IMG/VR virus record: IMGVR_UViG_3300025873_000010 | Coordinates: 1-38,888 of that record | From: a virus | Strand: one strand, 5' to 3' | DNA length: 38,888 nucleotides | Shown: one piece after another, positions 1-38,888 of the stretch | Layout of the letters: every line of letters starts with the position of its first letter | Numbering within the stretch: the first letter of the stretch is position 1 | Translations under genes and position numbers: made by a program | The notes under the pieces: model-generated | Told to the model about the DNA's origin: nothing | The model's database searches: none | The model's input: the letters and a program-made list of their open reading frames with translations, nothing else

Positions 1-619
1 TGTCTCGCAGGGTGATGCCGATGTTAAACTCGGGCAGGGACAGGTATCCCCCGGTTATGCCTTCCTTAAACACGACCATACCAGACCAGACATTGCGGTA
101 GTTACCGGAGTCGAAGTGATACTTGAGCGGGTTGTTCTCGTTAATGATACCGCTGGTAAAGGGAGCGTCATTGACCTTCCAGTCTTGGCCGACCTTCGCT
201 TCAGTCTCTGCCTTGTGCTTGGCATAGAGGTCGGGATTAACCTTCTGATAATTCCTTCCCACCATTGATGCCGCCTTGATTATTATGCTGTTTTGCTTTG
301 GGTAATCGCGGCTAAGTGAGGTTACGCTGCAATAATCCTTGCGTAGAACCTTGCGTGGTTCGTAGCCAAAGACTCGGGAAGTGGTCTTAAGTCCGCCTTG
401 CCTAAAGTTTTTGGTGTACTTGATCGTTTTGCAGGCTAACCGCAACGGTTCAAGGTTGTCCTCGGGCATGACATAGGAGAGGGCAAGCTTACCGTCCTCG
501 TAGAGGTTGAACGGTTCATCAATTAACGTCTCGTAGTCAGCTTCAACAGCATGGCGATGCCTGTACGCCTTGAAATCCAGCTTGCGCCTTGTCCCGTCTA
601 TTCTCATGACAGCAGCCAT
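1..619 (-). CDS. TET/JBP-like base dioxygenase, left-end partial copy (C-terminus cut by contig end)
   Basis: This is the N-terminal 206 codons of the same dioxygenase found complete at 38023-38853; the frame stays open to the contig edge. It contains the HxD iron-ligand pair but ends before the distal His and Arg. It differs from the right copy by about a dozen mostly conservative substitutions (for example Asp-Tyr versus Glu-Phe, Lys versus Thr, Phe versus Leu). The start is either ATG 619, with AAAGG upstream, or ATG 607, which overlaps the kinase stop as ATGA. The gene directly follows the kinase, so it belongs to the modification operon. I infer that this is not a second gene but the same locus read from another strain at the contig junction. 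Confidence 0.75.
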   Translation of the reverse strand, partial: MAAVMRIDGTRRKLDFKAYRHRHAVEADYETLIDEPFNLYEDGKLALSYVMPEDNLEPLRLACKTIKYTKNFRQGGLKTTSRVFGYEPRKVLRKDYCSVTSLSRDYPKQNSIIIKAASMVGRNYQKVNPDLYAKHKAETEAKVGQDWKVNDAPFTSGIINENNPLKYHFDSGNYRNVWSGMVVFKEGITGGYLSLPEFNIGITLRD

Positions 620-654
620 GTTAGCATGACCTTTGCGGCTACCTCGGTTTCATC
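1..654. repeat. Terminal direct repeat, left copy (partner 38235-38888)
   Basis: Bases 1-654 align without gaps to 38235-38888. I count 41 mismatches (about 94% identity). The first 127 and roughly the last 57 positions are identical and the differences lie between. Because the repeat is exactly at both ends, it marks circular permutation or terminal redundancy of a genome of about 38,234 bp. The divergence suggests two co-assembled alleles, not a replicated identical terminus. Confidence 0.9.
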
Positions 655-1149
655 CTCTGCGGCATGGGGCAGGGTGTGGCAGGGAAGGGATGAGTTAAGG
701 ATGTTCTTGATCTTGGTCACTCGCCCCTTGATGAACTTCTCTGATTGGCTGTCTCCGCGCGAGATATGCCGCTCACGGACAGTTTGGTCAGGCACCTTTA
801 GAATCATCACACGAAGGTCAATTCCCTCGTCTGCGGCAACTTCTTCAAGGAAGGATTTGGTGAAGAGCCGGTCACCTTCAAAGACGATCTTGACTCCCCT
901 AACGACCTTGAGATAGCGCAGCATCTTGGGCTGCACAGCCATGGACAGTTTATCGGTGCCAGCAAACAGATCGCCCTCGGCATATTTGCCCAGCACATAG
1001 AGATCGTTCGCCCGGTTGTAATGACCGTGAACCTTGGGGAACATCTCTGCGGGTCGCCACACGGGAAACTGACTCATGAAATGCCTCATCAGCGTGGTCT
1101 TGCCGGTAGCGGGAACGCCCCCTATTGCGAGTAATTTACTTTGTGGCAT
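604..1149 (-). CDS. P-loop kinase, predicted (hydroxymethyl-base) DNA kinase of the hypermodification cassette
   Basis: A 181-residue P-loop NTPase. The Walker A motif GGVPATGKTT begins about ten residues from the N-terminus, a hydrophobic strand VKIVFEGD follows near the middle, and a lid-like basic segment (VRERHISRGD) lies in the second half, as in small nucleotide or nucleic-acid kinases. ATG 1149 is preferred over an upstream TTG at 1167; it overlaps the stop of the PLP/aGPT-PPlase gene by 14 bases, and its own stop makes an ATGA overlap with the dioxygenase. In characterised thymine-hypermodifying phages a P-loop kinase phosphorylates 5-hydroxymethyluracil in DNA to give the substrate of aGPT-PPlase. 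The same role is inferred here from the neighbours; the sequence alone supports only a P-loop kinase. Confidence 0.75.
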   Translation of the reverse strand: MPQSKLLAIGGVPATGKTTLMRHFMSQFPVWRPAEMFPKVHGHYNRANDLYVLGKYAEGDLFAGTDKLSMAVQPKMLRYLKVVRGVKIVFEGDRLFTKSFLEEVAADEGIDLRVMILKVPDQTVRERHISRGDSQSEKFIKGRVTKIKNILNSSLPCHTLPHAAEDETEVAAKVMLTWLLS

Positions 1150-3334
1150 CGTTGTATGAGTTTTCAAAGCAAGGCCAGACGCTATCCATCATGACGGGTT
1201 GCCCGGTGTTGCGATAATGATTCTGCTTGATGGATTTAACCCCCACATCCCTTGGGCAATCCTCTAGTCGCAGACAGGCTGGGAGATATTGCTTACGGGC
1301 ATCCCAAAACAAGCTGAAATCCTCCTTACCATCCCACTTGGCCTCGGCAAGCTTGATGCGGTCATGGAACATATCGTTGTAGACATTGGGATAACGCCGG
1401 TTCTCCCGGTGCCATCCTTTGTATGTACAGAAGGTTGATTCCATCGTGAAGTAGTTCACATCGCGATAGAAATCCTCGTTCCTAAACCTTTCCTTGGCCT
1501 CGGCTAACAGGTCGGCTCCCTCTTTGGTAAGCCAATCCAGCACAGGCTTGTTGTAGCCCTTGAAACTGGAATTGGTTTGCGGGTGCCAATCCATATCCTC
1601 CCGGCCTAGCACATAGCAGAGTCCGTTACGGTGGGACTTGCTTCCCTCCATGTCGTAGAGGAACAGGGAGTCGCAGTTAATTTTAACTCCCATAATCCGC
1701 AGATATTCCAGATAGGAGAACGTGGAGAGTCTCCCGTAGAGGTGAAACCCGTTGATTACCTTGTCCCAAATACTGCGGAAACTCTCTTGCTCGGTTTTGC
1801 CATAGAGGGATGTGAAGAAATCCACTTGGGATGCCCCGTTTAGATTCTTCTGGTAATCCTCGACCATGATGATGAAATCCTTCTTGGAGTAGCGCCTGTC
1901 GGTGTCAAAGGCCAGCTTGGTGTAATTGGCCTCAAACCACTCTTTTAGGTCGGGCAGCTTCAGCTTGGCGAGGTCGGGGAACCGCTTAAAGATGCACCAA
2001 GTGGTGACCGGGTTTTGGCTGCATCCGTTAATGTAGGCGAACCAAAGCTTCTGCTCCATATCCCATCCCTGCTTGTCGGCTAGGTAAGGAAACACATAGT
2101 AAACGGCACCGGGATGCGCCCGGTATTGGAGGTGAAACCCGTAGAACCGGAGGAACACCTCCCGCCGATACTCCTTCTTGCGGAAGTCCATGCCGAAATT
2201 CAGATGCTTCTCCTCCTTTTTGGAGCCGCGCCCCGGCTTAACTGGTGACTTGGGATTTAACATGGTGAGATTGGTGTGGGGAGTAATCTTGGGGAACTCC
2301 CCCAGTTCCTTTTTAGCGTTGGCCATGTGTGCCGCACTCGGCTTGCTGCCGATAATCCAGAACACGGTCGTACTCTTGAGCAGTTCGGGGGCATTCTTAA
2401 CGATGTGATTCATCACCTTCCCCTCGTAAGTGGGGTGGAACGAAATTCCCTTGTAAGAGTACGGGACTGACTTGTGGTAACGAACTAGCCCACGGCCATG
2501 CAAATCATCGTAGTGGAGTGAATACGGGGCGCTACGGGCATTCTGGAAGGACGGTAGGTCGCTCTTGAACTTAGCGTTGAATACGAGGGTGTCAACTCCG
2601 GTTAGTTTACCAATCAAGCGGAGTCGCTCATCCACTAAATCCATCTTGGTTGGGCCAATGCCAATCAGGTAGATGTTCTTCAGCTTGGGCTTGGGATACC
2701 GGGCTAACCCGTAGAGGATACTGGTGCAGCTATTACAACTCCCGGCAGGAATGATGAGAGCGGTAATATCGTCGGGGATATTCCTGACTTGCTCGGAGCC
2801 AAGACGGTGAAACGCCTCCACTTCCTCGGGAGGATGGGTCTTATGGTCGCAAGTAATCCCGTACTCCAGCATGAAGTGGCTGGCGAAGTCTCCCCGGTAA
2901 AGGTCGTTGCACCGCTGTTGAAGCGCCGGGTTGTAGGCGACATTGATGAAGTCAAACTTGGCTCCGAACCAAGCTGCCATCTGCACCATCTCATTGCGGA
3001 TTGCCGCTTGGGGAGTAGTCGCCCCGATGATGAGAACAGAGGGGAGTCCAAAGTGCGTGGCCACCGCTGCTGCCATTGGAAGTTGAGGGGAGAGGACACT
3101 CGCTGCGGAGAGTAAACCGTCCTTGCCTCCCCCTTTGCGGTACTCGCTGGCAAGCCAGATCAGTTGTCGCAACTTGGAACCGTTAATGCCCCCGTAACCC
3201 AAAGGGGCAAAGGCATCGTCCCTCTTGAAGTTCAGCTTACCTACCGCCTGAACCGGGGTAAGCGTGTGGAGATTATTCTCCCACCGGGCCTTTCGACCCA
3301 AGGTCGTTGTCGGGAATATGCTGTCAACTAGCAA
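1136..3334 (-). CDS. Fusion of fold-type II PLP enzyme and aGPT-PPlase (thymine hypermodification) domain
   Basis: About 732 residues in two domains. The N-terminal half resembles ACC deaminase/D-cysteine desulfhydrase: KRDD near the start, GGINGSKLRQ with the presumed PLP-binding lysine, a Gly/Ser phosphate-binding loop (PAGSCNSC), and the family's closing segment GISFHPTYEGKVM. After a Lys/Pro-rich linker (SPVKPGRGSKKEEK) the C-terminal half matches the alpha-glutamyl/putrescinyl-thymine pyrophosphorylase superfamily: RFYGFHLQYRAHPGAVYY, EQKLWFAYINGCSQNPVTTW, and a later DGKEDF. These enzymes displace phosphate from a phosphorylated hydroxymethyl base with an amine or amino acid, and PLP enzymes then tailor the adduct. 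The start is uncertain: the frame is open to 3409, but the only non-ATG starts giving modest overlap with the ParB-like gene are TTG 3334 and TTG 3301. The following kinase overlaps its stop. Confidence 0.82.
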   Translation of the reverse strand: MLVDSIFPTTTLGRKARWENNLHTLTPVQAVGKLNFKRDDAFAPLGYGGINGSKLRQLIWLASEYRKGGGKDGLLSAASVLSPQLPMAAAVATHFGLPSVLIIGATTPQAAIRNEMVQMAAWFGAKFDFINVAYNPALQQRCNDLYRGDFASHFMLEYGITCDHKTHPPEEVEAFHRLGSEQVRNIPDDITALIIPAGSCNSCTSILYGLARYPKPKLKNIYLIGIGPTKMDLVDERLRLIGKLTGVDTLVFNAKFKSDLPSFQNARSAPYSLHYDDLHGRGLVRYHKSVPYSYKGISFHPTYEGKVMNHIVKNAPELLKSTTVFWIIGSKPSAAHMANAKKELGEFPKITPHTNLTMLNPKSPVKPGRGSKKEEKHLNFGMDFRKKEYRREVFLRFYGFHLQYRAHPGAVYYVFPYLADKQGWDMEQKLWFAYINGCSQNPVTTWCIFKRFPDLAKLKLPDLKEWFEANYTKLAFDTDRRYSKKDFIIMVEDYQKNLNGASQVDFFTSLYGKTEQESFRSIWDKVINGFHLYGRLSTFSYLEYLRIMGVKINCDSLFLYDMEGSKSHRNGLCYVLGREDMDWHPQTNSSFKGYNKPVLDWLTKEGADLLAEAKERFRNEDFYRDVNYFTMESTFCTYKGWHRENRRYPNVYNDMFHDRIKLAEAKWDGKEDFSLFWDARKQYLPACLRLEDCPRDVGVKSIKQNHYRNTGQPVMMDSVWPCFENSYNDATK

Positions 3335-3977
3335 CTTTGTAGGCGCGGATAGCTGCGGTAACCGCCTCGGTGTTGGACTCCAACTCGGCCAGATCACGGA
3401 TGCGCCCAATCAACCCCAGCACTTCGTCGTATTCGTCCTCGTCGTAGATGAGGGTTATCTGCCGCAGGGTAGTGTTGTCGTAGATATCCTTCTTGTCCTC
3501 AACGGTTCCCCTTGGGTCGCCGGGGTCATTCGAGTAATCCAGCGGCTTGGTCACATCAAACAATGCTTGAAACTCATCGTCGGTGTAGCCTGACAGCTCT
3601 AGGTCAAAGGAATCGTCCTCCTTGAGCTTTTGAAGTATATCTAGGGTAAGGTCAGCGGCGAGGTTGGAAAGTTCCGCTATGCGGTTGTCAGCGACCAAGT
3701 GGGCGAACTCCTCGGCCTCCGTCTTGAAGTCCTGTTCCTCAATTGGCACCTTGTCGGCATCCAACAGTTTTGCTGCCTCCAGCCTGCCGTGGCCGGCAAC
3801 AATGAAGCCGCTCTTTTTGCTAACCACAATTGGGCTGCGCCAGCCGGTATGCTTTATCACCTTGGCAAGCAGGGCAATCTGCTTGTCGGTGTGCTTGTTT
3901 GGGTTTTGGGGATGGGGAATTAGATTCACCACATCCTCCATCTTGGTGTGGTTGCAGTGGGTCTTGATGTCGCTCAT
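3324..3977 (-). CDS. ParB/Srx-fold nuclease-like protein of the modification cassette
   Basis: 217 residues. The N-terminal part carries the ParB/sulfiredoxin-fold signature: LIPHPQNPNKH, then a helix, SPIVV, and the loop VAGHGRLEAAKLL, followed by EFAHLVADNR. In phages these single-domain ParB proteins usually sit beside DNA methylases or base-modification genes and are thought to target or nick DNA rather than segregate it. The C-terminal 80 residues are acidic (EDDSFDLELSGYTDDEF) and not recognised. ATG 3977 is chosen because it lies one base after the DUF2589 stop; an upstream extension would run into that gene. It overlaps the PLP/aGPT-PPlase start by 11 bases if TTG 3334 is used, which suggests translational coupling. 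Confidence 0.8.
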   Translation of the reverse strand: MSDIKTHCNHTKMEDVVNLIPHPQNPNKHTDKQIALLAKVIKHTGWRSPIVVSKKSGFIVAGHGRLEAAKLLDADKVPIEEQDFKTEAEEFAHLVADNRIAELSNLAADLTLDILQKLKEDDSFDLELSGYTDDEFQALFDVTKPLDYSNDPGDPRGTVEDKKDIYDNTTLRQITLIYDEDEYDEVLGLIGRIRDLAELESNTEAVTAAIRAYKVAS

Positions 3978-3978
3978 C

Positions 3979-4614
3979 TTACTTGGAGCCAGACGGGGCT
4001 GCAGCATCAATCACATTGATTTGCTCTGACAGCATTTGGGTTAGTCTGCCCATTCCTTCGGCGGGGCCGAGGTTCTTGGCTGTGCAGTTTATCGTGTAAC
4101 GGCTGGAGAAATCCGTGGTACGGGTTTGGGTGCTGCTGCTGGTAACCGTCCCGGTGTGGGTGTTGTTATGGCTCCCGCCCACATCAAACGTGACCCCAAA
4201 GAGTTTGCCCCCCGCTGACGCATGAACATCCGTGGTTGAGCCGTCTACCTCAGTATCACCCTTAACTGAAGTGTTGTCGGTGTGAGCCGCAATCTGCATA
4301 TCAAAGAGCACATTGATATCGGTGATGCCCACGTTGGGGATTTGAACCAGCGACAGCACGGGGGTTTGGATGTTTTGGGTAACCATCTTAATCTCGTCAT
4401 CGTCGCCCTTAACAGGTCGTTCAATGTCAACGCTGATGCACCTTGTGGTGGTGTTGCCGTCCTTGTCGGTGTCAAAACCGATTTCATCCACGAAGTTTAG
4501 GGTGGACTTCGCTAGTGCCGTGCCTCCATCGCTCGCCGCCAGTATGGGCGAAAGGATTAAGTCCTTGATGGGAAGCCCCCTCATATCTGCTATTTGTGCG
4601 CTATCTGCTGCCAT
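3979..4614 (-). CDS. DUF2589 family protein, long paralog
   Basis: 211 residues. It shares with the preceding gene the segment PVLSLVQ-PNVGITDINVLFDMQI, typical of DUF2589, a family of unknown function. The N-terminus (LPIKDLILSPILAA, then FVDEIGF) also fits the family pattern of a start region followed by beta strands. The middle is rich in Thr, Ser, Asp and His (residues about 110-165) and looks like an insertion or flexible loop. No signal peptide or membrane segment is seen. It lies between the short paralog and the ParB-like gene, 7 bases from the former and one base from the latter, so it is cotranscribed with the modification genes. Whether it takes part in modification or in the virion is unknown. 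Confidence 0.7.
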   Translation of the reverse strand: MAADSAQIADMRGLPIKDLILSPILAASDGGTALAKSTLNFVDEIGFDTDKDGNTTTRCISVDIERPVKGDDDEIKMVTQNIQTPVLSLVQIPNVGITDINVLFDMQIAAHTDNTSVKGDTEVDGSTTDVHASAGGKLFGVTFDVGGSHNNTHTGTVTSSSTQTRTTDFSSRYTINCTAKNLGPAEGMGRLTQMLSEQINVIDAAAPSGSK

Positions 4615-4621
4615 GATTTTT

Positions 4622-5011
4622 TTATATTGTGGGTATTAGTTTCGTTAGGTTATCACCGATACGAGCCAAGCCTTCTGCCTTTTCCGTGCCGGTAAATTTT
4701 ATCTTAATGTTAGCCATCTTATTGTCCCGTAACTTGCCTAGATCGCCAACGGCTTCCTTATTGTCATGGTCAAGGGCAATTTCAAACTCAATCTCAACCT
4801 CTGAAATCTTCAGGCCATGATGCTGGACAAGAGAGAACAGGGGGATTTCAACCTTCTTCCCTGACAGAACCAAGGTAGCCGTCTTGGGCGCACCCTCCTT
4901 GTCAAAGTAGTCCAGTATTCTGCCCGATAGATGGCTCCCCTCCACATCCTTCTGCGCAGTAACCACTGCAGAATAAAGGCTATTGAATATCTCTTGGACA
5001 GAGGATGCCAT
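4622..5011 (-). CDS. DUF2589 family protein, short paralog
   Basis: 129 residues. The core IPLFSLVQHHGLKISEVEIEFEIAL aligns with PVLSLVQ...ITDINVLFDMQI of the next gene, so the two are tandem paralogs; both end with a conserved-looking segment that names a repeated target phrase (TGTEKAEGLARIGDNLTKLI here, GPAEGMGRLTQMLSEQI there). The N-terminus (SVQEIFNSLYSAVVTAQKDVEGSHL) is probably helical. ATG 5011 is one base from the stop of the F-like head gene, implying coupling. DUF2589 proteins of bacteria are often found in pairs, but their function is not known. Family call is made from motif memory, not from a search. Confidence 0.7.
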   Translation of the reverse strand: MASSVQEIFNSLYSAVVTAQKDVEGSHLSGRILDYFDKEGAPKTATLVLSGKKVEIPLFSLVQHHGLKISEVEIEFEIALDHDNKEAVGDLGKLRDNKMANIKIKFTGTEKAEGLARIGDNLTKLIPTI

Positions 5012-12458: not shown

Positions 12459-12788
12459 TTACTTATAGGTCACAACTTCGCTGCTACCATCTGGACGCAC
12501 CGAAACTACGCCATCATGGCCCTGTTCTTTAATCCAATCCATTGCCCTTAAGCACGCAGCCTCTCTGTCTGCTGCGTGAATTGTGTTAAACCTGTCTGTT
12601 ATTTGAATGTAGGCATCCTCCTCCGACAAAACCAAAGGGTTTTTCAGTTGGATGTGGTGCTTCTCTACATTAGGCCCATATTGTCTTGCTCTTTCCTTGT
12701 CGGTTGTGTGGTATTTCCCACTACCAAAATCGCCCGGATCGGCTGGCATCAGGGTTCCTGTTCCTCTGTAAACCAAATATTGTTTCAT
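12459..12788 (-). CDS. ADP-ribosyltransferase-like (ART polyvalent type) small protein
   Basis: 109 residues. The order VYRGTG, GSGKYHTTDKERARQYGP, IQLKNPLVL, EQGHDGVV, then PDGSSEVVTY fits the small ART-fold proteins of phages, where an N-terminal Arg, a Tyr/Thr strand and a C-terminal Glu line the NAD site (here R8, the YHTT strand and the E of SSEVV). If active it would ADP-ribosylate a host protein early in infection, like T4 ModA/Alt. ATG 12788 follows the GAAAGGAAC leader (12791-12799), and a cloverleaf-like RNA element lies directly upstream. Activity is unproven; the whole domain is short. Confidence 0.5.
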   Translation of the reverse strand: MKQYLVYRGTGTLMPADPGDFGSGKYHTTDKERARQYGPNVEKHHIQLKNPLVLSEEDAYIQITDRFNTIHAADREAACLRAMDWIKEQGHDGVVSVRPDGSSEVVTYK

Positions 12789-34100: not shown

Positions 34101-35770
34101 ATCGGTGCTTCCTCCAGCTTGGCTAATGGGGAGGACTCGTAACGCTTGACTGCCCCATTTACCATGGCCGCTCCCATGTTGCGTTCCATTGCCTCCTGCA
34201 AAACCTTCGTATCTAACTTGTCAAACAGTTCGGGCATCGTGTTTGCCGCCTTGGCGATTGCCCTTACAAAGTCCTCATCTGAAACGGATGAATCCATCGC
34301 TTTATTCACCAACTGAACAAAAGCCGGTTTAACAGGAGCAAGCCATTCAGCACTTACCCCGGAGATATCCTCTATCACGCGATTTAAAAGCTTATCTCTC
34401 GGCCCCGGCTCCGCCCTCTCAGCGGCATCAACAACGCCCTCCTTGGCGAACATGGGGGGCATCACTGGCACCTCTGGCGCGCTAATGATTTCCTCCCCTT
34501 CTTGCGGGATGGGAACATCGTGCCGGTCATAGAACCATTCACGGGGCATATCCACTCCGCTGGCTAAAAGTATCTGATCTCGCTGGGCTTCCCGTGTCGG
34601 GTCGGCTGGCCCTGCCAAGTCGGGAACAAGCTGGGGCATCTCGTCGTGGTTGCCGTAATTTTGGCGGCAGATGAAACCGACAAGCTGCTCATTCATCACA
34701 TTGGCAACCCATTCACACACATCTTGTAAGCGGGTACGCCTGACTTCCTCATGTACCTCGCCCAGCGCCCTGCTCCCCGAATCCGCCACATCAGTTGTTA
34801 GCGTCTGGCCTAAAATTGTTATGTCACAAAGCTTGTCAGCTAGGGTGATGAAATAGCTTTGAGGATTGTCCTCCCCTGACTTCCCTGCCTCTTTGAACTC
34901 CACCTGTGTCCCTGCCGGGAAAGCTCCCCATGCCGCTGAACCCATGTTCTCCAGCATATCAGCAATGTCATTCTTGATGTTGGCCGATGCACCGGGGTCA
35001 TAAGTCGCCCAACGCAAGGGCTGGCCGAATACTTGGGCAAAGTTCAAAAGCCAATCCCGGCAGAAGTTCTGGCCGCTCCACCAGAAAGCCAATTGCCTCA
35101 ACAACCCGTAGCCCATCGAGTTGCCTGACCTGTTCTTGTAGATGCCGATGAGGAACTTGTCATCAGGGAACTCCTCGTAAACACCATCACCCTGCGGGGA
35201 GAGCATCAGGTCGGGCTTGTCATAAGGGAACGAGTAATAACGGGGATGACAGAAGTAGGTTGACTTGGGCATGATTCCATCAACGGTTGATTCCCAAAGG
35301 ATTTCCTGCACGCTGAACCCCTTGCCAACGGCATCGCATAAATCATAGATGGCATCGCGGAATCCGTTGGTGCTGTTGATTGGGCTACCCACCCATGTAT
35401 CAAGGCAATGCTGAATGAAGTCAGCCTTTTCCTGTGCAGAACTGGTTGGCCTTTCCCCCCGCTCAGTAAAGGGCGTCACCGTGTAGGTTGCGGCTGATGC
35501 TGCGCTTTTCAACTCATGCAAATTCTTTGCCAGCCTAGCCCATGAATCTTCCATCAACTCATAGACTTGGTATTGCTGCCGAATATCCCCGCCCAAGGCT
35601 GTGCGGAGGATTGCAATGATATTGGCTGGGGATTGTTTTGGCCCCAGCGCATTGCTCTCCATCCGGTCACGATTGCTCGGGGCAATAACCCGAGAACCAA
35701 TAGATGAACCGTTACGCGACTTCTTCGCGCTAAACAGTTTCCCCAAGCGGTTACTTAATTCTGCAATCAT
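34097..35770 (-). CDS. Portal protein, Mu gp29-like (DUF935)
   Basis: 557 residues from ATG 35770. The family pattern is visible: IIAILRTALGGDIRQQYQVYELMEDSWARLAKNLHELKSA, GFSVQEILWESTVDGIMPKST, YRNVGYGLLRQLAFWW-type segment (GNSMGYGLLRQLAFWWSG), DWLLNFAQVFGQPLRWATYD, and ITILGQTLTTDVADSGSRALGEVH. The portal is the DNA entry ring at one capsid vertex. The ATGA overlap with terminase supports this start; the frame is open to 35893 but that lies inside terminase. Confidence 0.9.
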   Translation of the reverse strand: MIAELSNRLGKLFSAKKSRNGSSIGSRVIAPSNRDRMESNALGPKQSPANIIAILRTALGGDIRQQYQVYELMEDSWARLAKNLHELKSAASAATYTVTPFTERGERPTSSAQEKADFIQHCLDTWVGSPINSTNGFRDAIYDLCDAVGKGFSVQEILWESTVDGIMPKSTYFCHPRYYSFPYDKPDLMLSPQGDGVYEEFPDDKFLIGIYKNRSGNSMGYGLLRQLAFWWSGQNFCRDWLLNFAQVFGQPLRWATYDPGASANIKNDIADMLENMGSAAWGAFPAGTQVEFKEAGKSGEDNPQSYFITLADKLCDITILGQTLTTDVADSGSRALGEVHEEVRRTRLQDVCEWVANVMNEQLVGFICRQNYGNHDEMPQLVPDLAGPADPTREAQRDQILLASGVDMPREWFYDRHDVPIPQEGEEIISAPEVPVMPPMFAKEGVVDAAERAEPGPRDKLLNRVIEDISGVSAEWLAPVKPAFVQLVNKAMDSSVSDEDFVRAIAKAANTMPELFDKLDTKVLQEAMERNMGAAMVNGAVKRYESSPLAKLEEAPI

Positions 35771-37086
35771 GCCAGCGTGGGCCTCAATCCAGCCAACTTG
35801 GCTCGCCCAAGGATGATGTTGTCTATTCCCCCGATTGCTCCAGTTTGCTGATTCATCACCGATGCATAGGTTGCCAAGGCCAATGCCGTGCATCTGTCAG
35901 CATGACCATCTGAACGCCTAACAGCCCTGTACTGTTTATTTCCTCCCGGTGTGGTCAACTCATTGACCGAATGCAAATCCTCTCGTATGGCGTGATCTCT
36001 CGGAATGCGAATGGAACGCTCTTGCAATGCCCTCCTTAAACCGGGGAAGATTTTAGCCTTGAACCCCTGCGTGAAGTTGCATTGCTCAAGTTTGTATTCG
36101 TAACGATTGGCCAAGGACTCGCTCAAGGCATTCCCGATGCCGGTTGAATCAATGGTGGCGTAAGAAGCTTTGTTTATCCTCTCCGAAAGCAGTTCCTCCT
36201 GCAAGTGGTAGGGGGTATTCTTGAGTGTCAAAACTTCCCGAGTCCAAAGAACATCCCCAACCTTTTCCAGCGTCCAGCAAACAGTGAGGTCGTGCTTGCG
36301 CCCTATGTCAATGCCCACATAACGGACGGCCCTTCCCATGTCCTCATCGCACTCAATGGTGGCATCGTCGCTGACGCAATCATCAATCAGGGTGTAGGGG
36401 AGCAACACGTTGGTTGCATCAACAAACTCGCATTCGTATTCCTGTTCCCACGCATCTGGATCATCCAAGCCCCGCTTCAATTCCTCGACATTCATGGGCA
36501 ACCCTTCTTCAATCGCGCTGTAAATGGTTGTCTTATGCCGTACAAAGTTCAATTCATCCGCCTTGTTCCATATCTCAAAGAACTTGGAATTGCGCCCTGC
36601 CGGGGTGCTGATGATCCTGAGCTTTAGCTCACCCCTCAAGGGGTTGGAGATTGCTGGGTAAATGGCCTCGTAGATGCGGTCGGGCCTTTCGTGGAAGGCA
36701 AACTCATCCAGCACCAAGTTAGCTGAATAGCCACGCACGGTGTCCGGGTTAGCTGGGAGGGCAAGGATTCTTGAGCCATTGGTAAACCTCACCTCGCTGG
36801 TTCGACAGTCTGGCCTTGGCAACTCCAGCGCATCGCATACAATTCTCGCAACCCTGTTGCCCTTCAGCATCCATTCCTCTGACTGCCTTTGGCCTGCTGA
36901 AAGCACCACCCAATCGGTGTTAGGTTTATCCACACAACTGGCGACAGCTTCAAAGGCGGTGCCGAGTGAACCGCCAATCTGCCGGGACTTGAGCCAAATC
37001 TTGAAGCGGGACGTATCTGCCACCCACCGTTGTTGGTAAGGCAACATCAGCCCAAAAAGGATTTCCGCTCTCTTTGCTTTATCCAT
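35767..37086 (-). CDS. terL: Terminase large subunit (Mu gp28-like)
   Basis: 439 residues. The ATPase domain has a Walker A-like SRQIGGSLGT (residues 34-43; the usual Lys is Gly, with Arg 35 as possible substitute), Walker B and catalytic Glu in NLVLDEFAF (about 123-131), and the coupling motif in IISTPAGRNSKF. The nuclease domain has YVGIDIGRKHDLTVCW, DSTGIGN and a C-terminal HADRCTALALA. It drives genome packaging into the prohead. The stop overlaps the portal start by ATGA, and the start follows the TerS stop directly. Confidence 0.9.
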   Translation of the reverse strand: MDKAKRAEILFGLMLPYQQRWVADTSRFKIWLKSRQIGGSLGTAFEAVASCVDKPNTDWVVLSAGQRQSEEWMLKGNRVARIVCDALELPRPDCRTSEVRFTNGSRILALPANPDTVRGYSANLVLDEFAFHERPDRIYEAIYPAISNPLRGELKLRIISTPAGRNSKFFEIWNKADELNFVRHKTTIYSAIEEGLPMNVEELKRGLDDPDAWEQEYECEFVDATNVLLPYTLIDDCVSDDATIECDEDMGRAVRYVGIDIGRKHDLTVCWTLEKVGDVLWTREVLTLKNTPYHLQEELLSERINKASYATIDSTGIGNALSESLANRYEYKLEQCNFTQGFKAKIFPGLRRALQERSIRIPRDHAIREDLHSVNELTTPGGNKQYRAVRRSDGHADRCTALALATYASVMNQQTGAIGGIDNIILGRAKLAGLRPTLA

Positions 37087-37621: not shown

Positions 37622-37831
37622 TTAATCGTTAGCCCTTGGTGCAACTATCAGCCCTTCGCGGCGGCAGAAGGCAACTAGGTCTTTAATTTTATGGTTATTA
37701 AACCAATAGACTCCGTTCCTTTTATGAATACCCATCCCTCGACCGGAGGCAGCTTTTTGGGGTTTATCAATCCAACGCTGACTATGGCCAAGACCGTGCC
37801 GGTTGCTTCTCATTGTTAAGACATTATCCAC
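37622..37831 (-). CDS. Small basic DNA-binding-type protein
   Basis: 69 residues from GTG 37831 (or 63 from ATG 37813). The pattern IHKRNGVYWFNNHKIKDLVAFCRREGLIV is a short beta-helix unit like excisionase or homing-type small winged helix proteins. It overlaps the preceding HTH gene by 8 bases. Next to terminase and after the dioxygenase; role unknown. Confidence 0.55.
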   Translation of the reverse strand: MDNVLTMRSNRHGLGHSQRWIDKPQKAASGRGMGIHKRNGVYWFNNHKIKDLVAFCRREGLIVAPRAND

Positions 37832-38033
37832 GTTTATTTAGTATCCTTTCCAGTTCTGTGTTCATTATCAGGAGTTGTTTGCCTGCTAAAATTGCATTTA
37901 TTTGCCCAAGTTTAACCATCATACGCACCCTGTACTTGGTGATTCCCATTATTTCAGCCACCTCTGGCACAGAGTAAGAAACTTTTTTGTAACCTTGGCG
38001 CAACTTTTCCATTTTTGCGGTGTTAATGAACAT
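37824..38033 (-). CDS. MerR/excisionase-type HTH protein
   Basis: 69 residues from ATG 38033. The core YSVPEVAEIMGITKYRVRMMVKLGQINAILAGKQLLIMNTELERIL is a clear MerR-like/excisionase-family helix-turn-helix with wing. ATG 38033 overlaps the dioxygenase end by 11 bases; a GTG at 38063 would add 10 residues. It could regulate the modification or late operon. No integrase is present, so an excision role is unlikely. Confidence 0.65.
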   Translation of the reverse strand: MFINTAKMEKLRQGYKKVSYSVPEVAEIMGITKYRVRMMVKLGQINAILAGKQLLIMNTELERILNKRG

Positions 38034-38853
38034 CTGCTTTGATTCCAGCCCGTTTTGCTTCACGTTCGGAGCGGATTCTTCTAATTCTTATTATTTCGTC
38101 ATTAAGTGGCAGACACTTCCAGATTCCTTTAAGTGAGTAATAAACGATTGAATACCGCTTGGAATACTCGGACAGCCGTTGGATAGGGGTAACGCCGTGA
38201 AGGATACCTTGGCCATCGAAGTAGAGGATGGACTTGTCTCGCAGGGTGATGCCGATGTTAAACTCGGGCAGGGACAGGTATCCCCCGGTTATGCCTTCCT
38301 TAAACACGACCATACCAGACCAGACATTGCGGTAGTTACCGGAGTCGAAGTGATACTTGAGAGGGTTGTTCTCGTTAATGATACCGCTGGTAAAGGGAGC
38401 GTCGTAAATCTTCCAATCTTCGCCTACCTTCGCTTCAGTCTCTGCCTTGTGCTTGGCATAGAGGTCGGGATTAACCTTCTGATAATTCCTTCCCACCATG
38501 GACGCGGCCTTGACGATAATGCTGTTTTGCTTGGGGAACTCGCGGCTAAGTGAGGTTACGCTGCAATAATCCTTGCGTAGTACCTTGCGTGGTTCGTAGC
38601 CAAAGACTCGGGAAGTGGTCTTGAGTCCTCCCTGTCTGAAATTGGTGGTGTACTTGATCGTCTTGCAAGCTAACCGCAACGGTTCAAGGTTGTCCTCGGG
38701 GATGACATAGGAGAGGGCAAGCTTACCGTCCTCGTAGAGGCTGAACGGTTCGTCGATTAGCGTCTCGTAGTCGGCTTCAACGGCATGACGATTCTTGTAC
38801 GCCTTGAGGTCGAGCTTGCGCCTTGTCCCGTCTATTCTCATGACAGCAGCCAT
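38023..38853 (-). CDS. TET/JBP-like 2-oxoglutarate/Fe(II) DNA base dioxygenase
   Basis: 276 residues. The double-stranded beta-helix signature is visible: HFD (H168, D170), followed by SGNYRNVWSGMVVFKEG, GGYLSLPEFN near 190-199, FDGQGILHGVTPI with distal H219, and RYSIVYYS with R233 for the 2-oxoglutarate carboxylate. The GG-L-LPE and HGVTPI segments are characteristic of the TET/JBP branch, which oxidises the methyl group of 5-methylcytosine or thymine in DNA. It would supply the hydroxymethyl base for the kinase and aGPT-PPlase. Its start (ATG 38853 or ATG 38841, the latter overlapping the kinase stop as ATGA) lies in the terminal repeat. Substrate base is not decided by the sequence. Confidence 0.82.
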   Translation of the reverse strand: MAAVMRIDGTRRKLDLKAYKNRHAVEADYETLIDEPFSLYEDGKLALSYVIPEDNLEPLRLACKTIKYTTNFRQGGLKTTSRVFGYEPRKVLRKDYCSVTSLSREFPKQNSIIVKAASMVGRNYQKVNPDLYAKHKAETEAKVGEDWKIYDAPFTSGIINENNPLKYHFDSGNYRNVWSGMVVFKEGITGGYLSLPEFNIGITLRDKSILYFDGQGILHGVTPIQRLSEYSKRYSIVYYSLKGIWKCLPLNDEIIRIRRIRSEREAKRAGIKADVH

Positions 38854-38888
38854 GTTAGCATGACCTTTGCGGCTACCTCGGTTTCATC
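38235..38888. repeat. Terminal direct repeat, right copy (partner 1-654)
   Basis: Second copy of the end repeat, with the same length and no gaps relative to 1-654. It contains most of the dioxygenase gene and the last codons of the kinase, so joining the ends restores the operon order. Confidence 0.9.
38838..38888 (-). CDS. P-loop kinase, right-end fragment (C-terminal 16 codons and stop)
   Basis: These bases are identical to 604-654, the end of the kinase gene, and are cut by the contig edge. They show that the gene upstream of the dioxygenase is the kinase in both end copies, which supports a circular genome. Confidence 0.8.
   Translation of the reverse strand, partial: DETEVAAKVMLTWLLS

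Follow-up and report, generated by a model that had tools for sequence, protein, structure and literature searches.

The locus under study occupies the two ends of the window, by which we mean the whole 38,888-nucleotide stretch of viral DNA analysed here. In minus-strand order, it contains genes for a ParB-like protein (4010-3324), a fusion of a PLP enzyme with an amino acid:DNA transferase (3409-1136; the transferase, aGPT-Pplase2, PF18724, hereafter designated ADDT), a P-loop kinase (1167-604) and a TET/JBP dioxygenase (hereafter TET), followed by an HTH protein and the small and large terminase subunits. The first four genes constitute one minus-strand operon, which is closed by TET. The features are as follows.

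1-654, no strand: left copy of an imperfect terminal repeat (where the ends of a circular or permuted genome overlap), 613/654 bases identical to 38235-38888
2-619, minus strand: second TET allele, cut by the record end, 206 aa, protein 94% identical
604-1167, minus strand: P-loop kinase (Ploopntkinase3), predicted 5hmU-DNA kinase; PF18751, E 3.7e-10; phrog_800, E 1.3e-13
1136-3409, minus strand: 757-aa fusion of a PLP fold-type II enzyme and ADDT; PF18724, E 1.3e-17; PF00291, E 2.5e-4, under the cut-off
1193-2158, minus strand: ADDT half of the fusion, residues 418-739, identified by structural model and PUGT fold
2264-3331, minus strand: PLP half of the fusion, residues 27-382, with putative Schiff-base Lys79; 44% identity to the Maynard PLP enzyme
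3324-4010, minus strand: ParB-like protein directly upstream of the module; phrog_620, E 7.3e-31
35767-37086, minus strand: terminase large subunit (context); PF03237, E 1.1e-16; PF17289, E 3.9e-12
37824-38063, minus strand: small HTH protein after TET; PF12728, E 4e-5, under the cut-off; conserved in contigs L003-L006
38023-38853, minus strand: TET/JBP 2OG-Fe(II) dioxygenase, full-length allele, 276 aa; PF12851, AlphaFold model, TET2 fold
38235-38888, no strand: right copy of the imperfect terminal repeat, 613/654 bases identical to 1-654; also covered by L003

Upstream of ParB, two tandem DUF2589 proteins are encoded at 3979-5011, and a weak ADP-ribosyltransferase (ART-PolyVal) match under the cut-off lies at 12459-12788. 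The ParB-like protein also matched phrog_498, labelled 'DNA methyltransferase'; this match was not counted as a methyltransferase, because it aligns only to positions 27-171 of the 633-position profile and the protein gives ParB-like matches throughout.

The terminal segments 1-654 and 38235-38888 represent the same DNA, differing at 41 of the 654 bases. A single piece of contig L003 aligns to the window from 1792 to 1 at 99.9% identity and continues from 38888 to 33887 at 99.1%, thereby joining both window ends with one TET gene. Because L003 spans the join, the TET gene is single and the record is effectively closed at about 38.2 kb; the two TET ORFs were accordingly rejected as a duplication. 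Thus, the window represents a genome of about 38.2 kb, either circular or permuted, that was cut inside TET and carries two strain alleles at its ends, and the absence of a gene from it weighs more than absence from a fragment. Both alleles keep an open TET frame, as do L003 and L004.

The ORF at 38023-38853, which had been read from the sequence alone as a TET/JBP oxygenase, matched Tet_JBP (PF12851 in Pfam) with an E value of 2.4e-12 and a score of 46.8 bits, above the 34.9-bit cut-off. The AlphaFold model of the 276-residue protein had a mean pLDDT of 94.7 and, among the matches listed in a fold search, its closest solved folds were TET2 (Z 20.1), CMD1 (19.9) and NgTET1 (19.1), with FTO (Z 15.7) and AlkB-type enzymes ranking below them. 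Moreover, the HxD...H triad of H168, D170 and H219, which we take by homology to be the Fe ligands, and the distal R233, presumably the 2OG arginine, are unchanged across a 44-sequence TET alignment. Since these four residues are invariant, no loss of 2-oxoglutarate binding, the event named in the sequence-only reading as speaking against its proposal, is visible. The family match, the fold and the ligands together bear out the assignment, and by these features the ORF is an intact TET/JBP dioxygenase of predicted activity. The PHROG family label for this protein, 'queuine tRNA-ribosyltransferase', is at odds with the TET fold and was rejected. By tblastn, TET was found in 99 of 50,697 phage records. 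One scan with the TET alignment also gave three distant loci in genome contigs of two actinomycete MAGs and Pedobacter nanyangensis (30–35% identity); the Pedobacter locus (L201, 30%) lies in a bacterial genome contig and is possibly a prophage.

In the fusion protein, the PF18724 match lies above the cut-off, and the structural model of residues 390-757 had a pLDDT of 93.5. Among the matches listed, the best solved match of the ADDT half was PUGT (8z2n; Z 17.1 over 257 residues at 12% identity), the next fold having a Z of only 10.2. The PLP half shares 44% identity with the PLP enzyme encoded by Salmonella phage Maynard (ViI-like, Ackermannviridae), and its Lys79 is kept in all 27 rows that reach this column. 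Both halves occurred in one ORF only in the window (1 of 52 ADDT ORFs), and a scan of other contigs for the PLP-ADDT junction gave no match. A different fusion, of ADDT and kinase in a single ORF of about 500 aa, was seen in L114-L116 and L119.

The kinase retains its P-loop, and its G17, G22, K23 and D72 are present in 76 of 76 relatives. With local profile models, which were trained on a small number of seeds and refined over one and the same set of loci, the ADDT profile matched gp051 of Pseudomonas phage M6 (E 2.9e-34), and the kinase profile weakly matched the M6 kinase candidate gp054 (15.7 bits). PHROG 800 and phage records label such kinases 'terminase small subunit' (window 604-1167, L202 gp054, L013 gp03 and L203 gp03), probably because they adjoin the terminase. 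At nine loci (L013, L014, L016, L019, L020, L023, L028, L041 and L043), kinase and TET were found with no ADDT detected in the stretch examined; phosphomethyl-dU may already be the final base at these loci.

The genes that could supply a modified precursor or a methylated base were searched for in all six frames of the window. A thymidylate-synthase-fold hydroxymethylase (PF00303) gave no match even at E<=10, and a C5-cytosine methyltransferase (PF00145) gave none at E<=1, while both searches found their positive controls in control genomes and PF00303 recovered the M6 enzyme. Pfam and PHROG scans of most of the larger ORFs revealed no polymerase, and neither the local model nor Pfam scans of most of the larger ORFs revealed a TET-associated glycosyltransferase (TAGT). 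Thus, the claim from the sequence alone that no dUMP/dCMP hydroxymethylase, no DNA methylase and no polymerase is visible in the record was upheld within these searches.

The base on which TET acts was approached through its neighbours in related loci. A C5-methyltransferase lies within 5 kb of TET in only 3 of 80 loci of the clade containing the window TET, as compared with 63 of the 71 Melnitz-clade loci; conversely, ParB lies within the same distance (by local model) in 73 of the 80 and in none of the 71. A kinase is also found near TET in 27 of the 71 Melnitz-clade loci, so that the kinase alone is not diagnostic. On the TET tree (56 representatives, clustered at 75%, of 143 sequences, these being the ones long enough out of 183), which like the ADDT tree below is a quick tree with several long branches and treats related contigs that are not independent observations, the methyltransferase label changes three times, namely, at the Melnitz clade, at L066/L069 and at L024. 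Pfam scans of whole records, mostly the longest, for 50 of the 80 window-clade loci gave a C5-methyltransferase over the cut-off in 4, TAGT in 24 (16 over the cut-off), ADDT in 7, the kinase in 9 (5 over the cut-off) and PF00303 in none. One of the four methyltransferases is that of L027, a 327-kb record, located about 33 kb from TET and about 39 kb from the ADDT of the same record. Two TET genes with ParB genes occur in tandem at one locus in L023, L025 and L027.

A close relative illustrates how the genes behind TET can vary. The sister phage L005, with a large terminase 86.5% and a TET 78% identical to those of the window, encodes a TET-associated glycosyltransferase (PF20691; L005:4967-5770) in place of the kinase and the PLP-ADDT fusion. 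Here nature has exchanged the cassette behind TET, the tailoring genes changing while TET stays.

The reverse situation, in which the tailoring enzyme stays and its partner changes, was seen for ADDT. We surveyed 37 records scanned whole, that is, 35 viral-contig loci found via the PLP-ADDT protein plus Montesquieu and Maynard. TET (PF12851) was present in 23 of them, 22 over the cut-off, and PF00303 in 6, to which the local model adds L105 and L117, giving 8 of 37 with a hydroxymethylase-like gene. No record contained both, and PF00145 was absent from all 37. Neither TET nor hydroxymethylase was found in six records, of which five are shorter than 6 kb and one (L101) begins inside the PLP gene. 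On the quick ADDT tree, at least three changes of partner between TET and hydroxymethylase are seen. Indeed, the ADDTs of L107 (TET context) and L122 (hydroxymethylase context) share 67.6% identity, and the window ADDT shares 52–55% with those of L105, L117 and L122, all in hydroxymethylase contexts. Because they are so alike, the ADDTs of the two contexts presumably share one DNA base, which in characterised ADDT phages is 5hmU, according to PMC6449724. The phage Cr30 carries TET, ADDT and a thymidylate synthase; this synthase scored 373 bits, as against 54–86 bits for the enzymes of Maynard, M6 and Montesquieu, and looks canonical, unlike the hydroxymethylase-like enzymes of these three phages.

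From relatives we infer every enzymatic step, the step order and the final base of the following pathway. TET would convert thymine in the host-made, already replicated phage DNA to 5hmU, thereby standing in for the dUMP hydroxymethylase, the enzyme that provides M6- and ViI-type phages with 5hmU ahead of replication. The kinase would phosphorylate the hydroxymethyl group to give 5-phosphomethyl-dU, the ADDT half would put an amino acid in place of the phosphate, and this amino acid would be processed by the PLP half, probably by decarboxylation. The resulting aminoalkylated thymine would shield the DNA from restriction. We regard this course, hydroxylation of thymine after replication followed by kinase, ADDT and PLP tailoring, as likely. 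Its core, a post-synthesis thymine hydroxymethylation that feeds an aGPT-PPlase-type enzyme, had been put forward in the sequence-only reading and agrees with the PUGT fold, the partner swap and the rarity of C5-methyltransferases. As for the final base, the ViI-like 5-(2-aminoethoxy)methyl-dU (5-NeOmdU) is the best single guess, offered tentatively; two observations favour it, namely, the 44% identity between the PLP half and the ViI-like enzyme, and a phmmer search of the 154 window ORFs in which none matched M6 gp053.

The same reading had left the substrate as either thymine, in the manner of JBP, or host-methylated cytosine, in the manner of TET, and the comparative tests above support the former and disfavour the latter. 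In the latter case, TET would oxidise host-made 5-methylcytosine, and the kinase and ADDT would then act on 5hmC. The fold is indeed that of 5mC dioxygenases, and TETs of Melnitz-type phages accompany C5-methyltransferases and often a kinase. The pocket residue N173 of the window TET aligns with an Asn in TET2, which acts on 5mC, Asp being found only in Melnitz and Cr30; nevertheless, Asn occupies this position in all window-clade rows, including those beside C5-methyltransferases, so that N173 cannot separate thymine from 5mC inside the clade and was dropped as a mark of substrate. With no C5-methyltransferase in the record, three in 80 clade loci and none in the 37 ADDT/PLP records, with an ADDT half that resembles an enzyme for a deoxyuridine derivative, and with a host methylase that would presumably mark few sites, the oxidation of host-made 5-methylcytosine appears unlikely.

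C5-methyltransferases do lie beside the TETs of L024 (5840-7309), L066 (1758-2708) and L069 (8363-9313), and because of these neighbours the window clade may contain 5mC users; a switch of substrate from thymine to 5mC in L024 and L066/L069 is possible. That such methyltransferases appear twice, singly, in a clade of thymine context, beside TETs with the same pocket residue, could also mean that TET is a broad 5-methylpyrimidine dioxygenase acting on both T and 5mC, its substrate being set by what each phage DNA offers. We consider this very unlikely, as the methyltransferase genes in L024 and L066/L069 may serve an unrelated protective purpose. In a further reading, the module would be in decay or without activity, and the pair of alleles (41 of 654 bases differing at the record ends), the mixture of strains and the unique fusion, which other contigs do not confirm, would all be signs of an assembly error or a loss of function. 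This is hardly credible, since both alleles, L003 and L004 all have an open TET frame, and putative catalytic residues are retained in every module gene.

Returning to thymine as the probable substrate, we lean, with less assurance, toward a wider interpretation, in which the large phage TET clade, including the Coopervirus mycobacteriophages of M. smegmatis, would consist of dedicated thymine hydroxylases that have repeatedly been swapped with dUMP hydroxymethylase as the entry step. Such an enzyme would let phages that bring neither a nucleotide supply nor a polymerase of their own produce thymines derived from amino acids on DNA made by the host; the role of ParB may be to load the machinery or to set its position, and the fused PLP-ADDT protein would finish the aminoalkyl base, which is maybe new. 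The partner swap on the ADDT tree provides a quantitative argument that the whole phage TET clade targets thymine, and the cultured M. smegmatis phages in this clade make the thymine reading directly testable. If true, a thymine-specific TET would be a useful reagent to write 5hmU into DNA. Among TET/JBP enzymes, the kinetoplastid JBPs are established oxidisers of thymine. To our knowledge, the published work on phage TET enzymes concerns cytosine, and titles and the beginnings of abstracts in the literature searched, which left preprints and most subscription papers outside its coverage, contained no report of a thymine-directed phage TET activity.

Among nine named-phage genomes scanned whole, a C5-methyltransferase was found only in Melnitz-3 and PF00303 only in Cr30, and the combination of ParB, TET, ADDT and kinase was found in CaiB, Tonitrus, MO526 and Fortunato. 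In Mycobacterium phage Fortunato (L203:431-1756), whose host is M. smegmatis mc2 155, the TET frame is unannotated and part of it falls in an annotation gap (798-1258), and in Arthrobacter phage Bumble (L010:8811-11643), ParB, TET and TAGT lie in a stretch without annotated genes. The respective reports predict ParB, TET/JBP, a pyrophosphorylase (aGPT-Pplase2) and a kinase among genes 1–5 of Gordonia phage CaiB (PMC9302106), and ParB, TET/JBP, aGPT-Pplase2 and a kinase among genes 1–8 of Rhodococcus phage Tonitrus (PMC11955845). The novelty that had been attached to a thymine-directed TET feeding an aGPT-PPlase is therefore reduced, and the module is a variant of a predicted, partly published gene set, not a new kind. 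Like the window, these two phages have the set ahead of the terminase and whole genomes without C5-methyltransferase or PF00303; they differ in that their TETs are 29–36% identical to the window TET and ADDT is a separate gene. No window-type PLP enzyme was detected within the examined flanks of these two.

The window resembles the thymidine-hypermodifying phages ViI of Salmonella (5-NeOmdU) and M6 of Pseudomonas (5-NedU) in encoding ADDT and a PLP enzyme, its PLP half being of the ViI type, next to a kinase that is a candidate for their 5hmU-DNA kinase. In the route of these phages, as given in PMC6449724, 5hmdU is incorporated during replication by the phage polymerase. M6 and Maynard have a thymidylate-synthase-fold gene, whereas the window has TET instead and no such gene. 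PUGT, the 5-phosphomethyl-dU glycinyltransferase gp46 of phage PaMx11 (8z2m/8z2n), resembles the ADDT half of the window in fold, at 12% identity. A C5-methyltransferase/TET system of cytosine hypermodification in phages was reportedly described by Burke et al. in 2021 (cited in PMC12730594); the window has in common with it a phage-encoded TET/JBP enzyme and tailoring enzymes, but lacks its defining C5-methyltransferase. In kinetoplastids, JBP1/2 oxidise thymine in DNA after synthesis, and the product is then tailored to base J (PMC12730594). Base J is tailored with glucose, whereas tailoring in the window would proceed through a kinase and amino acid transfer.
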